Shown: positions 9,779-21,320 of the stretch, piece by piece
Layout of the letters: the number at the start of each line of letters is the position of its first letter
Position numbering within the stretch: the stretch's first letter is position 1
Source of the DNA: a virus
Length of the DNA stretch: 27,200 bases
Virus record (IMG/VR): IMGVR_UViG_3300042894_005581
Span: 1 to 27,200 of that record
Direction: 5' to 3' (one strand)
Made by a program: the position numbers and the translations under genes
The notes under the pieces: generated by a model
What the model was told of the DNA's origin: nothing
The model's database searches: none
What the model saw: only the letters and a program-made list of their open reading frames with translations

Positions 9779-9807
9779 TTTACTTCTATGTGTTTTCAAC
9801 ATATAGT
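9779..9807 (+). promoter_or_regulatory. Sigma70-like promoter abutting the zincin-VWA gene
   Basis: TTTACT (9779-9784), 17-base spacer, TATAGT (9802-9807). The -10 ends nine bases before the ATG at 9817, so transcription would begin only about two to four bases upstream of the start codon. Confidence 0.65.
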
Positions 9808-9816
9808 AGTACCATA

Positions 9817-12060
9817 ATGAATAACGGATCACAACAACAATCAATGCTGGCTCGCCTGCTGTCGAAGGAGAACATTTCTGTTCAACACGGCAAGTTCCAG
9901 ACCGCCTTCTTTGACGTGAAAAACCGCGTGCTTGGTCTGCCAGTCTGGAAAGACAAAGGCAAGGACGTGTACGACCTCTTGGTCGGTCACGAGGTCGGTC
10001 ACGCCCTTTACACCCCCCGTGATGCTTTGGACGGCAAACTCCCCTGCCGCAAAGACTACCTCAATATCGTTGAGGACGTTCGCATCGAGAAAATGATTCG
10101 TGCGACCTACCCCGGTCTCGTTGGCTCTTTCCGTCGTGGTTATGACGTGCTGAACGCCGAGGATTTCTTTGGAATCAAAGGCAAAGACGTTCAGGCTCTT
10201 ACCATCGGCGACCGTGTTAACCTCAAAGCCAAATTGGCTTCTGCCATCAATGTCTCCTTTTCTTCCGCCGAGCAATCCGTGGTCGATCAGGTAATGGCTG
10301 TTCAGACCTGGGATGATGTTGTGGCTGCTGCGATTGCGCTTCAGAAATTGGCTCAAGAACAAGCCGAACAAAATCCTAACGCCGAAGGCAAAGCCCCTAC
10401 TAAGAAAACGACGGCGGCGGGCGATCAACAAGCCGACCCCACGGCTCAAGGCGAGCCTATGGAAGGTGAGCCTGGCGAAAACCAAGCCGATGGTGCCGAT
10501 GATGAATCCAAGGACGGTGACGCCGACCTTAAGGAAGCTATTGAAAAAGCCCTTGACGACCTTATGGGCAATCCTAGCAAGCCCTCAAAAGACCAATCTG
10601 CTCCTACTCAGGATGGCAACGGCGACGAACAAAAAGCCGATGCTGCTCCCAAGTCTGAATTTGACCCAAACCACCACGGCACCGTGCCGGAAATCACCAC
10701 CAACTCTCACTTTGAAAAACAAGCCAAGACGCTTGTCGACAACAGCAACGAGGTTCGGGCGACGACTTACATTACCCTTCCTTCCAAACAAGATTTAGCT
10801 GGTATGATCATCTCAAATGAGACCATCACCAAAGACCGTGACGCCGCTTGGCAAAAACACCTTGAGACGTACAGCGGTGGGCACACACGCCCGACCTATA
10901 CCCAGGAATACGCCGAATTCATTGCCAGCACCAAGAAGTTTGTGGGTGTGCTCAGTAAGGAATTTGAGATGCGCAAAGCCGCCTATCAATACAACCGTGC
11001 TACCGTCTCTCAGACTGGTATCCTAAATGTCAACAAATTACACAGTTACAAAATTACCGACGACATTTTCCTGAGTGTAACCCAATTGGCCAATGCAAAA
11101 AGCCATGGTATGATGATGTTCATTGACTATTCTTATTCAATGAACACGACGATCAAGTACGTTCTCAAGCACGTGATCAATCTCAGCATGTTCTGCAAAG
11201 CTACCGGTATCCCTTTTCAAGTCTATGGTTTTACTGGTGACAATGATTCACGCCCTTATGTGTCTCCTGGCGATCAAACGCTGGGTCGCAAGGACGGTCA
11301 GCTTCTTATTGATAATGTTGTCATTCTGGACCTTATTAACTCTTCAATGTCCAAGAGTCAATATCAAGCCGCGCTCAAAGCCCTCTTTGATCAGACCCAA
11401 AATTCCTACGTTCAATCTAAATATGAACGCCTTGGCAACACTCCATTGAACGAGACCATCATCTTGGCTCACGACCTCGTCAATAAATTCAAAGCCAAAC
11501 ACAAAGTCCAGAAAATGACCACGGTATTTCTGACCGACGGCGAAGGACAACACCTCCGTACGTTTTCAGCCGCCGCATACAATGAAAATCGTATGGCTCC
11601 TGCATATGAGACCAATGTTGATCTCACCGTCAATGGTCGTCGTGTGAAATCTCCTCAAGGCAGCCTTACCGACGAACTCATCAAAAATCTGCGCATTACC
11701 ACTGGTACTAAAGCTATTGGTTTCTTCATCCCTTCCGGCACTCCGAATGCTCAACGCGACGTGGTTAATGCGCTTCAAAGCCGTCCAAAAAAGACCGACT
11801 ATCACGCGGCTTATACCCTCTGGCAGACCAAACTGTCCAAGGACTACAAGAAAAACAAATCGGTTGCCGTTGAGGACGGTTTCGGTTATGATCAGTACTT
11901 TGTGGTTGCTTCTGGCGCCGACCTTGATACCGAAGACGAAGACCTCACCATCACCTCGGACATGACTCGCTCCAAGATGGCCAAGGCTTTTTCCGAATTC
12001 TCCAAGTCAAAACAAGTAAACCGTGTGTTTGTTTCTAAGTTTGCCGAAACAATTTCCTAA
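9817..12060 (+). CDS. Zincin-type metallopeptidase fused to a von Willebrand A domain (CobT-like layout)
   Basis: A 747-residue protein in three parts. Residues 1-180: a zinc-peptidase-like domain with HEVGH (H58, E59, H62) and a downstream NIVEDVRIEKMI, where E86 is a likely third zinc ligand. Residues about 180-290: an acidic Ala/Pro/Gln/Asp-rich linker. Residues about 425-730: a von Willebrand A domain with a complete MIDAS, DYSYS (D437, S439, S441), T542 in NTPLNET, and LTDGEG (D574). The order N-domain, acidic linker, VWA recalls cobaltochelatase CobT, and the next gene is a CobS/MoxR-like ATPase. I infer a chaperone or protein-remodelling pair with possible protease activity; substrate unknown. 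A TTG at 9775 in the same frame would start inside the promoter and is rejected. Confidence 0.8.
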   Translation: MNNGSQQQSMLARLLSKENISVQHGKFQTAFFDVKNRVLGLPVWKDKGKDVYDLLVGHEVGHALYTPRDALDGKLPCRKDYLNIVEDVRIEKMIRATYPGLVGSFRRGYDVLNAEDFFGIKGKDVQALTIGDRVNLKAKLASAINVSFSSAEQSVVDQVMAVQTWDDVVAAAIALQKLAQEQAEQNPNAEGKAPTKKTTAAGDQQADPTAQGEPMEGEPGENQADGADDESKDGDADLKEAIEKALDDLMGNPSKPSKDQSAPTQDGNGDEQKADAAPKSEFDPNHHGTVPEITTNSHFEKQAKTLVDNSNEVRATTYITLPSKQDLAGMIISNETITKDRDAAWQKHLETYSGGHTRPTYTQEYAEFIASTKKFVGVLSKEFEMRKAAYQYNRATVSQTGILNVNKLHSYKITDDIFLSVTQLANAKSHGMMMFIDYSYSMNTTIKYVLKHVINLSMFCKATGIPFQVYGFTGDNDSRPYVSPGDQTLGRKDGQLLIDNVVILDLINSSMSKSQYQAALKALFDQTQNSYVQSKYERLGNTPLNETIILAHDLVNKFKAKHKVQKMTTVFLTDGEGQHLRTFSAAAYNENRMAPAYETNVDLTVNGRRVKSPQGSLTDELIKNLRITTGTKAIGFFIPSGTPNAQRDVVNALQSRPKKTDYHAAYTLWQTKLSKDYKKNKSVAVEDGFGYDQYFVVASGADLDTEDEDLTITSDMTRSKMAKAFSEFSKSKQVNRVFVSKFAETIS

Positions 12061-12100
12061 CGGTTATTGACTATCAACAACTTATACCATATCTTTGTGA

Positions 12101-12128
12101 TTTACTTTCATACGGTTTAATGTATGAT
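12101..12128 (+). promoter_or_regulatory. Sigma70-like promoter of the AAA+ gene
   Basis: TTTACT (12101-12106), 16-base spacer, TATGAT (12123-12128), in the 100-base gap between the two module genes. The predicted leader is about 26 bases, ends CTTTATT before the ATG, and has no Shine-Dalgarno site. Confidence 0.65.
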
Positions 12129-12160
12129 AGTACTATAACAATTAATTGACCTTCTTTATT

Positions 12161-13330
12161 ATGAAATCAGCATCCCTCACCATTCTTGCCTCCCTTAAGG
12201 AGACCCATCCCGACGTTACGGTTTTCCGCCGTAAAGTCATTGATACCGTGGCTGCAACCCATGGCTTCGTGGAAAAGGAATACAATGACCTCTTTGCAGA
12301 TGCCTACCGCGTCCACAAGGGTACCTACGACTATACCAGCCTCCTTCGTACCACTACGGCGGCAACCACCGTTTCCCAAGTTGTTCCTATGACTCCGGCA
12401 CCCGCCGTAATGAAATTGGGGACCTCTGTGAATTCCATCGTCAATACCGATGCTTATATTCCGCAAAGTGATCCTACCTACATTCGCTGGGGTGAATTCT
12501 CCGACATCATGACCGTGATCAAATCGCGGACGTTCTATCCCATCTTTATTGCCGGTCTGTCGGGCAATGGTAAGACCATGATGGTCGAACAAGCCTGTGC
12601 CGTAGCCGACCGCGAATACATTCGTGTTCAGATTTCACCAGAAACCGACGAAGACGATTTGATCGGTGGCTTCCGTCTCCTCAACGGCGAGACCGTGTTT
12701 GCCAAGGGTCCCGTGGTCAAAGCCATGGAACGTGGCGCCATTCTCCTCGTGGATGAAATCGACCGTTCCACCAACAAAATCATGTGTCTCCAAGGCGTGC
12801 TGGAAGGTAAGCCCATCATGATCAAAAAGACTGGCGAAGTCATTCGTCCGGCTGCCGGCTTCAATGTGATTGCCACTGCCAATACCAAGGGCAAAGGTTC
12901 CGAGGATGGTCGGTTTGTGGCTGCTACGGTTATTGACGAAGCCTTCCTCGAACGCTTTGTATGCACCATCGAGCAAACGTATCCACCATTGGCTACCGAA
13001 CGCAAAATCGTTGTGAAGCACATGGAAAAATTTAATGCCGTCGACGAAGAGTTTGCCGATAAACTCGTGACCTGGTCGGAAGTCATTCGCAAGACGTTTG
13101 CCGATGGTGGCGTTGACGAAATCATTTCCACTCGGCGCCTGTGCCATATCGCACACACATTCTCCATCTTCCGCGACCGGCTCAAGTCCATCAATATGTG
13201 TATCTCTCGGTTCGACGACGACACCAAACTCGCCTTCGCCGACCTTTACTCCAAGATTGATGCTTCGGTTGTTCCAGCTCCAGCAGCTGCTCCCACCCCT
13301 GCTCCAGAAGCCGCTCAGCCCGCGTTCTGA
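12161..13330 (+). CDS. MoxR/CobS-type AAA+ ATPase
   Basis: A 389-residue AAA+ ATPase. Motifs: Walker A GLSGNGKT (132-139), the MoxR/CobS-type segment SPETDEDDLIGGF (159-171), Walker B LLVDEID (195-201), sensor 1 IATANTKG (N241), a likely arginine finger LERF (R265), and sensor 2 STRR (323-326). The last ~20 residues are an Ala/Pro tail. T4-like cyanophages carry a similar gene usually annotated cobS, but no cobalamin genes are here. MoxR/CobS ATPases typically work with VWA-domain partners, and the upstream gene encodes one, so the two probably form one machine. The ATG at 12161 is chosen; an upstream TTG at 12146 adds four residues without support. Each gene has its own promoter. Confidence 0.85.
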   Translation: MKSASLTILASLKETHPDVTVFRRKVIDTVAATHGFVEKEYNDLFADAYRVHKGTYDYTSLLRTTTAATTVSQVVPMTPAPAVMKLGTSVNSIVNTDAYIPQSDPTYIRWGEFSDIMTVIKSRTFYPIFIAGLSGNGKTMMVEQACAVADREYIRVQISPETDEDDLIGGFRLLNGETVFAKGPVVKAMERGAILLVDEIDRSTNKIMCLQGVLEGKPIMIKKTGEVIRPAAGFNVIATANTKGKGSEDGRFVAATVIDEAFLERFVCTIEQTYPPLATERKIVVKHMEKFNAVDEEFADKLVTWSEVIRKTFADGGVDEIISTRRLCHIAHTFSIFRDRLKSINMCISRFDDDTKLAFADLYSKIDASVVPAPAAAPTPAPEAAQPAF

Positions 13331-13736: not shown

Positions 13737-14066
13737 ATGGAACAACAACAGACCGAGCAACAGTCTCCCCTCGAAGGTCGCAAATACGATACGGACAAGC
13801 CGGAATACGGTTTGATTCCTCCGTTTGCCCTTGAGGAGCTTGCTCATGTTCTTACCATCGGAGCCAAGAAATATGCCCGAGAGAACTGGAGATATGTACC
13901 AGAAGCCGAACGTCGGTATTATGATGCACTCCAACGCCATCTCTGGGCATGGAAACGTGGTGAGCGTTTTGATCCTGAAACGGGCCGACATCACCTAGGA
14001 CACGCAGCCGCGTGTCTCTTTTTCCTCTATGAACATGATCAGGGACACGCAGACACATCTTTTTAA
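13737..14066 (+). CDS. MazG-like dNTP pyrophosphohydrolase (dATP/dGTP diphosphohydrolase type)
   Basis: A 109-residue helical protein. The segment KYDTDKPEYGLIPPFALEEL, followed by a helix ending TIGAKKYARENW, and the C-terminal RHLWAWKRGERFDPETGRHHLGH pattern match small phage proteins annotated as dATP/dGTP diphosphohydrolase (MazG-like). The two glutamates of FALEEL and the HHLGHAAACLFF helix are candidates for the metal site. A role in adjusting the nucleotide pool for phage DNA synthesis fits its place just upstream of the sliding clamp, with a two-base gap. The ATG follows directly on the pyrimidine tract of the preceding terminator and has no Shine-Dalgarno site. Confidence 0.75.
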   Translation: MEQQQTEQQSPLEGRKYDTDKPEYGLIPPFALEELAHVLTIGAKKYARENWRYVPEAERRYYDALQRHLWAWKRGERFDPETGRHHLGHAAACLFFLYEHDQGHADTSF

Positions 14067-17692: not shown

Positions 17693-17719
17693 TTTACATA
17701 CCGACAACCTTTGTATAGG
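17693..17719 (+). promoter_or_regulatory. Sigma70-like promoter abutting the primase-like gene
   Basis: TTTTGTTA then TTTACA (17693-17698), 15-base spacer, TATAGG (17714-17719); TAGGAT at 17716-17721 gives a 17-base spacer. The first choice ends eight bases before the GTG start at 17728, so a leaderless transcript is predicted. Confidence 0.65.
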
Positions 17720-17727
17720 ATTGTACA

Positions 17728-18678
17728 GTGAATTATTCCCTTACAGTATTCGACTCCATCTTTGATAATAAGACGGACAAGAAAGTCACCGTGGCTTCAT
17801 GGGAGGACTTTGAAAAACTTATGTTCCAACTCTCCAAACTTCCTGGTTACAAAGCCAAGAAGGGAGAGAAAAAGAAATCATCATCATTGATTTCTCCCGC
17901 AATTTATACCGAAGGCGCCACACGTGCAAATGCAAATGTAACTGGTTGGGGTGGTTGGGCTGCACTTGATGTTGATGAATATGATTGTTCGTTTGAGGAA
18001 GCAGCCGGGCGCTATGTGAAGTACCGTCATATCTGTTATTCAACTGCGTCATCACGCCCGGAGAAAAAGAAGTTCCGAGTGGTGTTCCAATTAAACAAGA
18101 TTGTTCCTGCCGATAAGATTCGGCATTTCTGGTACGCCTTGAACAAGCACTTTGGTTCCATCGGCGATGAACAGACCAAAGACCTAAGCCGAATGTACTA
18201 TGTTCCGGCTCAGTATCCGGATGCCGATAATTTTATCCTCGTGCATTCGGGAGAGATTATGGACCCCGATGCAATCATGGCGCAGCATCCATATTCCGAG
18301 AAGCCATCCATAACTCTTATGGACAAGTTTCCCGCGGCAATCCAAGCGGAGATTCTAAAGCATCGTAAGGAACAAGCCAACAACAATACAATCACTTGGA
18401 ACTCCTACCTCGATTGTCCGTTTGTAAACAAAGCACTCATTAAGGAATACAAATCAATTTCATCTATAGATGGTTCAGGAAGATACCGAATGATCTATAA
18501 GATTATGTCCAGCATTGCGTGTAATGCGGTAAAGAAACGCTATCCCATCACCGGTATGCAGATTGCAGAGATGGTAAGGGATTTGGATAGGGATACAGCA
18601 AGAATCTACCAGAAACGCCCTCTACACACGGAAGCAGATAGAGCGATTGAGTTTGCCTACAAATCCGTCACTTTTTGA
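17728..18678 (+). CDS. Putative archaeo-eukaryotic-primase-like protein
   Basis: A 316-residue protein that I do not recognise as a named T4 gene. Residues about 75-165 resemble primase-polymerase (AEP) domains of plasmids and phages: a strand with two acidic residues, WAALDVDEYD (D81, D83), then YSTASSRPEKKKFRVVFQL (S105, R117), and a distal KDLSRMYYVP (D152, R155), matching the usual 'hhhDhD ... YST.SS.pekp+.Rvvh.l ... D..R..ylP' layout. The C-terminal half looks helical. Adjacency to DNA polymerase supports a replication role. The start is GTG at 17728; no ATG gives a complete N-terminus, and the promoter is directly upstream. Alternative: an AEP-fold protein without primase activity. Confidence 0.5.
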   Translation: MNYSLTVFDSIFDNKTDKKVTVASWEDFEKLMFQLSKLPGYKAKKGEKKKSSSLISPAIYTEGATRANANVTGWGGWAALDVDEYDCSFEEAAGRYVKYRHICYSTASSRPEKKKFRVVFQLNKIVPADKIRHFWYALNKHFGSIGDEQTKDLSRMYYVPAQYPDADNFILVHSGEIMDPDAIMAQHPYSEKPSITLMDKFPAAIQAEILKHRKEQANNNTITWNSYLDCPFVNKALIKEYKSISSIDGSGRYRMIYKIMSSIACNAVKKRYPITGMQIAEMVRDLDRDTARIYQKRPLHTEADRAIEFAYKSVTF

Positions 18679-18705
18679 TTTACAACCATCGGCGGTTGGT
18701 ATAGT
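18679..18705 (+). promoter_or_regulatory. Sigma70-like promoter abutting gp43
   Basis: TTTACA (18679-18684), 15-base spacer, TATAGT (18700-18705). The spacer contains a small inverted repeat, CAACC (18683-18687) and GGTTG (18694-18698). The -10 ends eight bases before the polymerase ATG at 18714; a leaderless transcript is predicted. Confidence 0.65.
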
Positions 18706-18713
18706 GTTATTGA

Positions 18714-21320
18714 ATGGAATTTTACACAAACGTCCAAACCTACGGCGACCATATTCTCTATCGCGGCTATCGTGATGGGCTCCGGGTAAAGGACAGGGTC
18801 AATTTTAAGCCCACATTGTTTCTCGGCGTCGATGAGGCACAGTCGCCTTACATGTCGCTTACCGATGTTCCGGTGAAGCCAAATGTTTTTGGTTCTCTAA
18901 ATGATGCCAAGGAGTTTGTGGAAATGTATTCCCACACCGGTAAGGTGTATGGTAATACCCGTTGGGTCACCAACTTCATTCAGAATCAATTTCCCGATGA
19001 AATCCAATTCAACCGCGACATGGTAAATGTGGCGTCATTGGACATTGAAGTGCATTCGGATGAAGGCTTTCCCGACCCCGACCGCGCCGAATATCCTATT
19101 ACCGTCATTACGGTCAAAAACAATCACTCCGACATGTTCAACGTGTGGGGTGTAAAAGCATTCGACCCCGACCAATCTATTTTTGCCGGCAAGGTTGCTT
19201 ACACGCAGTATCGTAGCGAGGAAGAAATGCTTCAGGGCTTCCTCGACTGGTGGTCAAACACCCAAAACATGCCCGACATTCTCACGGGCTGGAACTCTAG
19301 ATTCTTTGACGTTCCCTACATCATCAACCGTATCGTAAAACTACTTGGCGAAAAGACCTGCACGAAGCTATCTCCATGGCCAACAATCAAGGGTTGCATT
19401 CGTCAGAAAAATGTAACGATTATGGGTCAGACGAAACTGTCCTATGAAATCGTTGGCATCTCTCAGCTCGACTATCTCGACCTCTTCCGTAAATTCACCT
19501 TGAACACCTACGGCAATCAGGAGTCCTATAAACTCGGACACATTGCCCATATCGTGCTGAATGAGACAAAACTGTCCTATGCCGAATACGGAAGCCTCGG
19601 CGGTCTCTACAAAAACAACTTTCAAAAGTATGTCGATTACAACATCAAGGACGTTGAACTTCTGGAACGCCTCGAGGATAAACTTGGTCTCATCACTTTG
19701 GTTCTTACACTTTCCTACATCGGTGGCGTAAACTATACCGACACCCTTGGTACCACTGCCATTTGGGAATCCATTATCTACCGTGATCTAATGTCACGCA
19801 AGATCATCCCTACCGTCACGCCGATTCGTCCAAGCTACGAATATACCATCATCGGTTCCAAGACCGACGAGGAGAAAGCCCTTGCCGAAGAAGGCGATGA
19901 ACCTGGTTCCTTTGCCGGTGGTTATGTAAAGGATCCTAAGGTTGGCTTTCATGATTGGGTATGTTCATTCGACTTGAACTCTCTGTATCCCAATCTCATT
20001 ATTCAATACAACATGTCGCCGGAGACCATTCTACCGGTTCAGATGCAGGGAGTCCATCCCGACAAACTTCTTGCCGGAAACATCCCGCAACCTGAAATTG
20101 AAAATGCCATTGTTGCGTCCAATGGTGTGCTGTTCGACCCCAACCGCAAGGGTATCATTCCAGAAATCATCAAGGGCATTTACGACAAACGTGTTGTCCT
20201 TAAGAAGGACATGATCGCGGAGAAGAAGAAACTTGAGAAAACCGACAAGTCCGACAAGGTTGCTAGGTTCAAGGTTGAACGTGAAATCAGTCGCCTTGAG
20301 AATCATCAGGTCGCTCTTAAAATTCTTCTGAACTCACTTTACGGTGCTCTTGGTAACAAACACTTTCATTACTTTGATGTCCGTGTTGCCGAGGGTACCA
20401 CTCTGTCGGGTCAGACTGCAATCCGTTGGGCAGAAATGAATGTGAACAAGTACCTTAACGGCGTCCTCAAAACTAAGGACATTGATTATGTAATTGCCAT
20501 TGACACCGACTCGGTGTATGTCACAATGAAACCCATTGTCGACATGTTCAAGCCCAACAACCCCGTGAAATTCTTGGATGAATTCTGCTCGAAAGCCATT
20601 GAGCCCGTGTTCAAGGATGCGTATGAAAAACTTGCCAAGAATGTAGGTTGCCCTGATAACCGCATGATCATGAAACGTGAGGCAATTGCCGACCGTGGTA
20701 TCTGGACCGCCAAGAAGCGTTACATCCTAAATGTCCACAACAATGAGGGCGTTCAGTATGCCGAACCCAAAATCAAGGTGATGGGTATTGAAGCCGTGAA
20801 GTCATCGACTCCGGAAATCTGTCGTGATGAAATGAAACGGATGTTCAAAATCATCCTGACCAAAACGGAAGCCGAAGCGCAGGCTGAAATCAAAGCCTTC
20901 CGCGACAAATTCAAGACACTCGACCCCGTAAACATTGCGTTTCCCCGCGGTACCAAGGACATCTCCAGCTATCGTAGTTCAAATACCATCTACAAGAAAG
21001 GTACTGGCGGCACTACGCCTATTCACGTCCGCGGTTGTCTTCTGTTCAATCATCATCTCAAGATGAAGAACCTTCTAAATAAGTACGAAACAATCAAGAA
21101 TGGCGAGAAAATCAAATTCATTTATCTTCGTACACCCAATGCAATCAATGAGAATGTCATTTCATTCATCGACGTGATTCCCAAGGAATTCAACCTCCAC
21201 AATCATATTGACTTTGACAAACAATTTGAAAAGACCTACCTCGACCCGATCAAAATCATTTTTGAAGCAATCGGCTGGAAGTGCGAGGAGACCTCATCGC
21301 TTGAAAACTTCTTTTCTTGA
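18714..21320 (+). CDS. 43: Family B DNA polymerase gp43
   Basis: Replicative polymerase with 3'-5' proofreading. Exonuclease motifs: ExoI SLDIEVHSDE (D110, E112), ExoII TGWNSRFFDVPY (D199), ExoIII YNIKDVELL (D313). Polymerase motifs: motif A SFDLNSLYPNL (D420), motif B KILLNSLYGALGN, motif C AIDTDSVYV (D597, D599), and the KKRY motif. The C-terminus SSLENFFS resembles the T4 gp43 clamp-binding tail (SLDMFDF). Length 868 versus 898 in T4, in one piece, with no intron or split. No Shine-Dalgarno site precedes the ATG; the promoter lies immediately upstream. A CCTTCTAAATAAG sequence at 21071-21083 recurs just before the next gene. Confidence 0.98.
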   Translation: MEFYTNVQTYGDHILYRGYRDGLRVKDRVNFKPTLFLGVDEAQSPYMSLTDVPVKPNVFGSLNDAKEFVEMYSHTGKVYGNTRWVTNFIQNQFPDEIQFNRDMVNVASLDIEVHSDEGFPDPDRAEYPITVITVKNNHSDMFNVWGVKAFDPDQSIFAGKVAYTQYRSEEEMLQGFLDWWSNTQNMPDILTGWNSRFFDVPYIINRIVKLLGEKTCTKLSPWPTIKGCIRQKNVTIMGQTKLSYEIVGISQLDYLDLFRKFTLNTYGNQESYKLGHIAHIVLNETKLSYAEYGSLGGLYKNNFQKYVDYNIKDVELLERLEDKLGLITLVLTLSYIGGVNYTDTLGTTAIWESIIYRDLMSRKIIPTVTPIRPSYEYTIIGSKTDEEKALAEEGDEPGSFAGGYVKDPKVGFHDWVCSFDLNSLYPNLIIQYNMSPETILPVQMQGVHPDKLLAGNIPQPEIENAIVASNGVLFDPNRKGIIPEIIKGIYDKRVVLKKDMIAEKKKLEKTDKSDKVARFKVEREISRLENHQVALKILLNSLYGALGNKHFHYFDVRVAEGTTLSGQTAIRWAEMNVNKYLNGVLKTKDIDYVIAIDTDSVYVTMKPIVDMFKPNNPVKFLDEFCSKAIEPVFKDAYEKLAKNVGCPDNRMIMKREAIADRGIWTAKKRYILNVHNNEGVQYAEPKIKVMGIEAVKSSTPEICRDEMKRMFKIILTKTEAEAQAEIKAFRDKFKTLDPVNIAFPRGTKDISSYRSSNTIYKKGTGGTTPIHVRGCLLFNHHLKMKNLLNKYETIKNGEKIKFIYLRTPNAINENVISFIDVIPKEFNLHNHIDFDKQFEKTYLDPIKIIFEAIGWKCEETSSLENFFS

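Follow-up and report, generated by a model that had tools for sequence, protein, structure and literature searches.

A coupled zincin-VWA and AAA+ ATPase gene pair in a T4-like phage, a candidate replication-stage remodelling protease related to CobS-CobT

What does a MoxR/CobS-type AAA+ ATPase do in a phage when its partner combines a VWA domain with a peptidase-like site? The question is raised by the IMG/VR record IMGVR_UViG_3300042894_005581 of a T4-like phage, whose 27.2-kb stretch (27,200 nucleotides, the window) carries a zincin-VWA gene, P0001, and an ATPase gene, P0002, between gp46 and gp45 (the T4-type clamp genes adjoin). On balance, and with some reserve, we favor the explanation that the pair is a remodelling protease acting at the replication stage. 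A sequence-only reading of this DNA had proposed an undescribed ATP-driven protease or maturase module; the AAA+/VWA pair with its peptidase site, the lack of CobN and the separate promoters speak for such a module, but its undescribed status did not survive a comparison with the literature, since both pair types were published in 2021 (PMC7824862, PMC8651126). One of these studies, on group 2.2 jumbo phages, reported a MoxR-vWA pair carrying an N-terminally fused metallopeptidase and proposed that it serves virion assembly (PMC7824862). A viral cobST cluster was described separately, in which cobT is the cyanophage ‘peptidase’, this label was called a misannotation, and hijacking of CobN was proposed (PMC8651126). 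Other papers count cobS among the core genes of cyanophages, with its function unproven (PMC3037559, PMC2984593, PMC9983427). The pair is of a known but uncharacterized kind, to which the window copies add a member.

PHROG 459 covers P0001 end to end. P0001 matched no Pfam family at E <= 1, the CobT models (PF06213 and PF11775) included, and among the solved structures nothing was matched significantly by the zincin-VWA profile. In the AlphaFold2 model of the whole protein (predicted template modelling score, pTM, 0.68), a disordered linker connects a largely helical N-domain to the VWA domain, and the model’s best Foldseek matches among the solved structures are the NorD VWA domains from NorQ-NorD complexes. 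In a model made of the N-domain alone, two consecutive helices (residues 48–65 and 79–97) carry HEVGH and the ED motif, respectively. The six best PDB folds of this model are all metallopeptidases, including selecase, abylysin and, at the top, the antirestriction protein ArdC, with a top probability of 0.92 and weak E-values of 0.18–0.5; the likeness to ArdC is at the fold level only. The sequence signature of gluzincins, HExxH with a downstream Glu ligand, is present as H58, E59, H62 and E86, and in a 45-sequence alignment these residues are invariant together with D87 and the metal-ion-dependent adhesion site (MIDAS) residues D437, S439, S441, T542 and D574. Both open reading frames were found at the coordinates given in the sequence-only reading, and recomputing the residue numbers of HEVGH, the third-ligand region and the MIDAS gave those of that reading. 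The zincin domain is quite probably an active peptidase, and on our data the label ‘peptidase’ is no mistake at the sequence level. The MIDAS in the window’s own subgroup reads DYSYS, DYSSS or DYSHS in place of the usual D.SGS, with the metal-binding positions retained.

P0002 carries sensor 1, the Arg finger and sensor 2 in addition to Walker A and B, and its ATPase motifs are invariant among 69 sequences. It matches the Pfam family AAA_5 (E 1.1e-20), and the nearest proteins of known structure by sequence are midasin, CobS and NorQ, with the AAA modules of midasin the closest (E 2.7e-38). Midasin (Rea1/Mdn1) also has a MIDAS domain that works with its ring; however, it is a single giant eukaryotic chain for ribosome assembly without a peptidase. 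The CobS equivalog TIGR01650 is not reached by P0002, which scores 63.2 bits against a cut-off of 558.55.

Both zincin motifs are retained throughout the T4-like relatives. From 160 IMG/VR loci, we obtained 118 distinct long zincin-VWA copies, five of them cut by a contig end and 113 with a complete N-terminus. All 113 have HE[VI][GS]H (HEVGH in 104, HEVSH in five and HEIGH in four) and N..ED.RI, so that the motif on which the sequence-only reading had relied is indeed kept among homologs. As the T4-like zincin-VWA homologs share only ~30% overall identity, this retention is more than chance would give.

The two genes are also genetically coupled. The zincin-VWA gene lies directly upstream of the ATPase gene on the same strand, at a distance of −1 to ~480 nt, in every IMG/VR locus with room for both except one, and the usual order is gp47-gp46-zincin-VWA-ATPase-gp45-gp44. 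In the exceptional locus (L076:2-2780), gp45 comes straight after the zincin-VWA gene, and the ATPase gene is absent from its place. An annotated phage collection holds equal numbers of records for each gene, 365 from Synechococcus phages, 61 named ‘Cyanophage’ and 24 from Prochlorococcus phages (450 in total). In the phage S-CREM2, the pair has been relocated as one unit; this phage is said to be without cobS (PMC10665884), though the pair is encoded there, annotated as ‘ribosome assembly protein’ and ‘MoxR-like ATPase’ (L297:2622-5876). In the Pseudoalteromonas phage XG4 (L003:5935-8174), VWA, zincin and ATPase are separate open reading frames in that order. What is usually one protein has here undergone fission, and this split beside the ATPase gene suggests that both parts act in one complex. 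For Staphylococcus, Listeria and Mycobacterium phages with weak AAA matches, no zincin-VWA partner was found in the neighboring proteins examined, so distant AAA homologs do occur without one. Independent occurrence of the two genes is confined to rare cases.

The copies in PHROG 459 and 249 of the T4-like cyanophages, where they are core genes, and of the Pelagibacter phage HTVC008M belong to the same families over nearly the full length and share the gene order and the gp46-gp45 setting; the window proteins are ~30% (zincin-VWA) and 50–60% (ATPase) identical to them and differ in having DYSYS instead of D.SGS at the MIDAS. The jumbo phage pair, compared by its published description only, has the same architecture and pairing (PMC7824862).

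Each of the two genes has its own sigma70-like site in the window and in many relatives (Table 1), in agreement with the separate promoters claimed from the sequence alone. The form TTTAC[AT]-N14..18-TATRRT also precedes gp55, gp44, gp43 and uvsX in the window, and a looser pattern finds eight plus-strand sites where 0.3 would be expected, none of them more than 120 bp from the start of a gene, for a pattern that was derived from the window’s own intergenic regions after seeing them. Among distinct relatives, a similar site lies upstream of gp43 in 26/36 and of gp45 in 65/90, as it does for the pair, whereas the operon-internal genes differ (gp62, 0/65; gp47, 8/51). The phage late motif precedes the zincin-VWA gene in none of 82 relatives and the ATPase gene in one of 102, compared with 10 of 13 for the tail-tube gene. 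The sigma70-like sites and the near absence of the late motif support a placement of the pair in the early/middle promoter class. As a separate observation, the predicted −10 boxes at 9802-9817, 18700-18714 and 17716-17728 end only ~7–10 nt before the starts of the zincin-VWA gene, gp43 and a primase-like gene, respectively, so that the transcripts would be nearly leaderless.

Table 1 Positions of the two genes, their domains and motifs, and their promoters in the window
Feature	Position	Strand	Basis
Zincin-VWA gene P0001, 747 aa, PHROG 459 ‘peptidase’	9817..12060	+	ATG at 9817; profile E 9.6e-177
N-terminal zincin-like (gluzincin-type) domain, residues 9-187	9841..10377	+	Model pTM 0.82; top PDB folds metallopeptidases
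HEVGH, putative zinc-binding/catalytic motif, residues 58-62 (E59)	9988..10002	+	HE[VI][GS]H in 113/113 intact relatives
NIVEDVRIE third-ligand region, residues 83-91; E86, D87, R89, I90 invariant	10063..10089	+	Alignments
Acidic low-complexity linker, residues 188-292	10378..10692	+	25% Asp+Glu; predicted local distance difference test (pLDDT) < 50 at 188-287
VWA domain, approximate limits 430-700	11104..11916	+	Foldseek top matches NorD VWA, 9qh6 and 9qhe
MIDAS DxSxS (DYSYS), residues 437-441; T542 and D574 complete MIDAS	11125..11139	+	Invariant in 45 sequences
Sigma70-like promoter of zincin-VWA gene, TTTACT-N17-TATAGT	9779..9807	+	Similar site in 55/82 relatives
Sigma70-like promoter of ATPase gene, TTTACT-N16-TATGAT	12101..12128	+	Similar site in 77/102 relatives
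MoxR/CobS/midasin-type AAA+ ATPase gene P0002, 389 aa, PHROG 249 ‘porphyrin biosynthesis’	12161..13330	+	ATG at 12161; E 1.3e-110
Walker A GLSGNGKT, from residue 132	12554..12577	+	Invariant in 69 sequences
Walker B ILLVDEID, from residue 194; D198, E199, D201 invariant	12740..12763	+	69-sequence comparison

The pair is very probably a remodelling machine. The best-described counterpart is NorQ-NorD, likewise a MoxR ATPase with a VWA adaptor, in which a finger of the VWA domain reaches into the pore of the ring, the target is held by the MIDAS, and the linker is twisted as ATP is hydrolyzed (PMC13036017, PMC9976466); the target there is nitric oxide reductase, and no zincin domain of NorD is described in these two papers. 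For the phage pair, we infer complex formation, proteolysis, timing and substrate as follows. A hexameric MoxR-type AAA+ ring would work with an adaptor in which the flexible acidic linker connects the VWA/MIDAS domain to the zinc-peptidase domain. If it acts as NorQ-NorD does, its VWA domain would dock in the pore of the ring, the metal of the MIDAS would grip an acidic residue of the substrate, ATP hydrolysis would twist or pull the adaptor, and the zincin domain would make a limited cut in the exposed substrate. The machine would be made early or midway through infection along with the replication proteins, which makes a protein of the replication or takeover stage, from the phage or from its host, the likeliest substrate; a tetrapyrrole chelatase would not be one, and a component of the virion probably would not be either.

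That the substrate comes from the replication stage we propose only tentatively. Nearly all sufficiently long loci of SSU5-like phage-plasmids and of related phage-plasmids and viruses encode DnaE 1.5–3.2 kb downstream of the zincin-VWA gene, and in the Vibrio phage ICP2 the pair is near primase, helicase and polymerase genes, which is suggestive of a pair that accompanies replication genes across unrelated replicases. Several points weigh against the replication-stage protease. Phage early regions cluster many unrelated genes, so the neighborhood by itself speaks only weakly for a replication substrate, and the S-CREM2 pair lies away from gp46 and gp45. The Foldseek E-values of the N-domain are weak, and the promoter pattern was drawn from the sequence in which it was then counted. 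Finally, HExxH has decayed to QEVAK, REVST and SEISK in pABTJ2 (L189:2888-4810), xx99 (L005:3637-5622) and ZY21 (L006:3526-5610), respectively, where the VWA MIDAS and the ATPase persist; peptidase activity would thus be dispensable in some lineages.

An assembly chaperone-protease that remodels and cuts structural proteins of the virion, comparable to ATV p618/p892, is the role that the authors of the jumbo phage study proposed, and an archaeal virus MoxR-VWA pair without a peptidase has been reported to be necessary for tail assembly (cited in PMC7824862). The promoters described above and the proteomes argue otherwise: neither protein is among the 52 mapped virion proteins of S-CREM2, in which the pair genes are at 31017-34271, and neither is named in the text on the S-SZBM1 proteome (30 reported proteins), although factors of assembly may leave the finished virion. 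In addition, T4-like phages possess their own prohead protease. A related set of AAA ATPase, DUF3150 protein and zincin-VWA protein with an intact HEAGH is carried by IncHI2 conjugative plasmids (L191:49-4693), which are not known to form virions; the IncHI2 version was sought in viral contigs and none was found. We consider virion assembly unlikely.

Two further explanations appear slightly less probable still. In the first, the pair is a chaperone for metal insertion or maturation whose HExxH domain binds a metal or the target without proteolysis. Metal insertion is the task of NorQD, CobNST and ChlIDH alike, and the repeated loss of HExxH with retention of the VWA domain and the ATPase fits such a role. 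However, the general-base Glu, E59, is strictly conserved in the 113 T4-like copies, and pure metal binding has no need of it. In the second, the pair is a protease of host takeover or counter-defence that eliminates some host protein soon after infection begins. The early/middle-type promoters, the distribution over phages, phage-plasmids and conjugative plasmids, and the fold match to ArdC, itself found on mobile elements, are in line with it; yet that likeness is confined to the fold, and, in contrast to what is typical of counter-defence genes, the pair is a stable core set whose order is fixed.

The kinship to CobS-CobT, also asserted in the sequence-only reading, finds support in the homology to CobT, and it bears on where the peptidase site came from. 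The two systems share the order of N-domain, acidic linker and VWA domain with an AAA+ partner; CobT differs in having no HExxH and in working with CobN, and the window proteins are far under the family cut-offs. A Klebsiella phage-plasmid relative with an intact HEVGH is homologous to CobT over its whole length, matching both CobT Pfam domains (PF06213, 7e-23; PF11775, 5e-100). In profile-profile comparisons, in which unrelated pairs stayed below 1%, the T4-type N-domain matched the phage-plasmid N-domain at 97.5% (8e-12) and the latter matched cellular CobT at 80.6% (1e-5). The direct comparison of the T4-type and CobT N-domains was not significant (3.5%), and the link to CobT therefore holds only via the phage-plasmid group. 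In the alignment with CobT, GF/LxDxxAL replaces GHEVGHAL and the VExAR[IV]E helix is kept; homologous yet without HExxH, CobT has the look of a relative whose peptidase has died. On the tree built from 42 proteins, four changes of the HExxH state are required (in cellular CobT, pABTJ2, ZY21 and xx99), two of them forced by well-supported branches, with ICP2 and IncHI2 on long branches in unsure positions. These comparisons strongly suggest an ancestral peptidase site that CobT, a pseudo-zincin, has lost, rather than one added to CobT, but given the long branches and the unknown root this is a suggestion and not a proof. We found no published link between CobT and zincins in the open literature, which does not prove that none exists.

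It is conceivable, if rather doubtful, that mobile elements have an ancestral zinc protease, powered by ATP, of which the pair is the living form; it would work at the replication stage beside the element’s replicase, whichever that is, and CobT would have descended from it by loss of the peptidase site and recruitment to vitamin B12 synthesis. Seeing CobT as a dead zincin would explain, in a way that can be tested, the former nature of its N-terminal domain. In the Caulobacter vibrioides control genome, CobT (PF06213) was matched and CobN (PF02514) was not, possibly a CobT without its chelatase partner.

That the pair is instead a viral CobST that hijacks host CobN for more cobalamin (PMC8651126 and the older cyanophage literature) is very improbable, and it was rejected as the best explanation on the family cut-offs, the missing CobN and the conserved peptidase site absent from real CobT, even though the whole-length homology of the phage-plasmid protein and the existence of CobN/ChlH-family proteins in cyanobacteria favor it. 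CobN (PF02514) was found neither in the window, as the sequence-only reading had held for cobalamin genes nearby, nor in eight related virus records; like the window, these may be fragments from phages of an unknown host. Furthermore, related pairs are present in E. coli and Klebsiella phage-plasmids, and production of vitamin B12 in E. coli needed added CobN, CobS and CobT (PMC6249242).

The pair usually bears the labels of vitamin B12 enzymes, probably wrongly. The ATPase gene is routinely taken for an auxiliary metabolic gene for vitamin B12 and serves as a marker of marine myophage communities; if the pair is a remodelling protease, this ecological interpretation is wrong. A MoxR ring with a VWA-zincin adaptor would also be unusual among AAA+ proteases in that its peptidase would sit on the adaptor and not in a chamber. 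Relatives occur both in abundant ocean viruses and in the E. coli and Klebsiella phage-plasmids, where the machine can be tested.

Elsewhere in the window, profile matches identified gp55, gp46, gp45, gp44, hsp20, gp43 and uvsX. From their position and from reading the sequence, we take seven further genes to be gp22, gp23, uvsW, gp47, gp62, regA and gp41. At 13737-14066, the window encodes a 109-aa protein with a domain common to the dATP/dGTP pyrophosphohydrolase and the endolysin/RNA-polymerase-inhibitor families.

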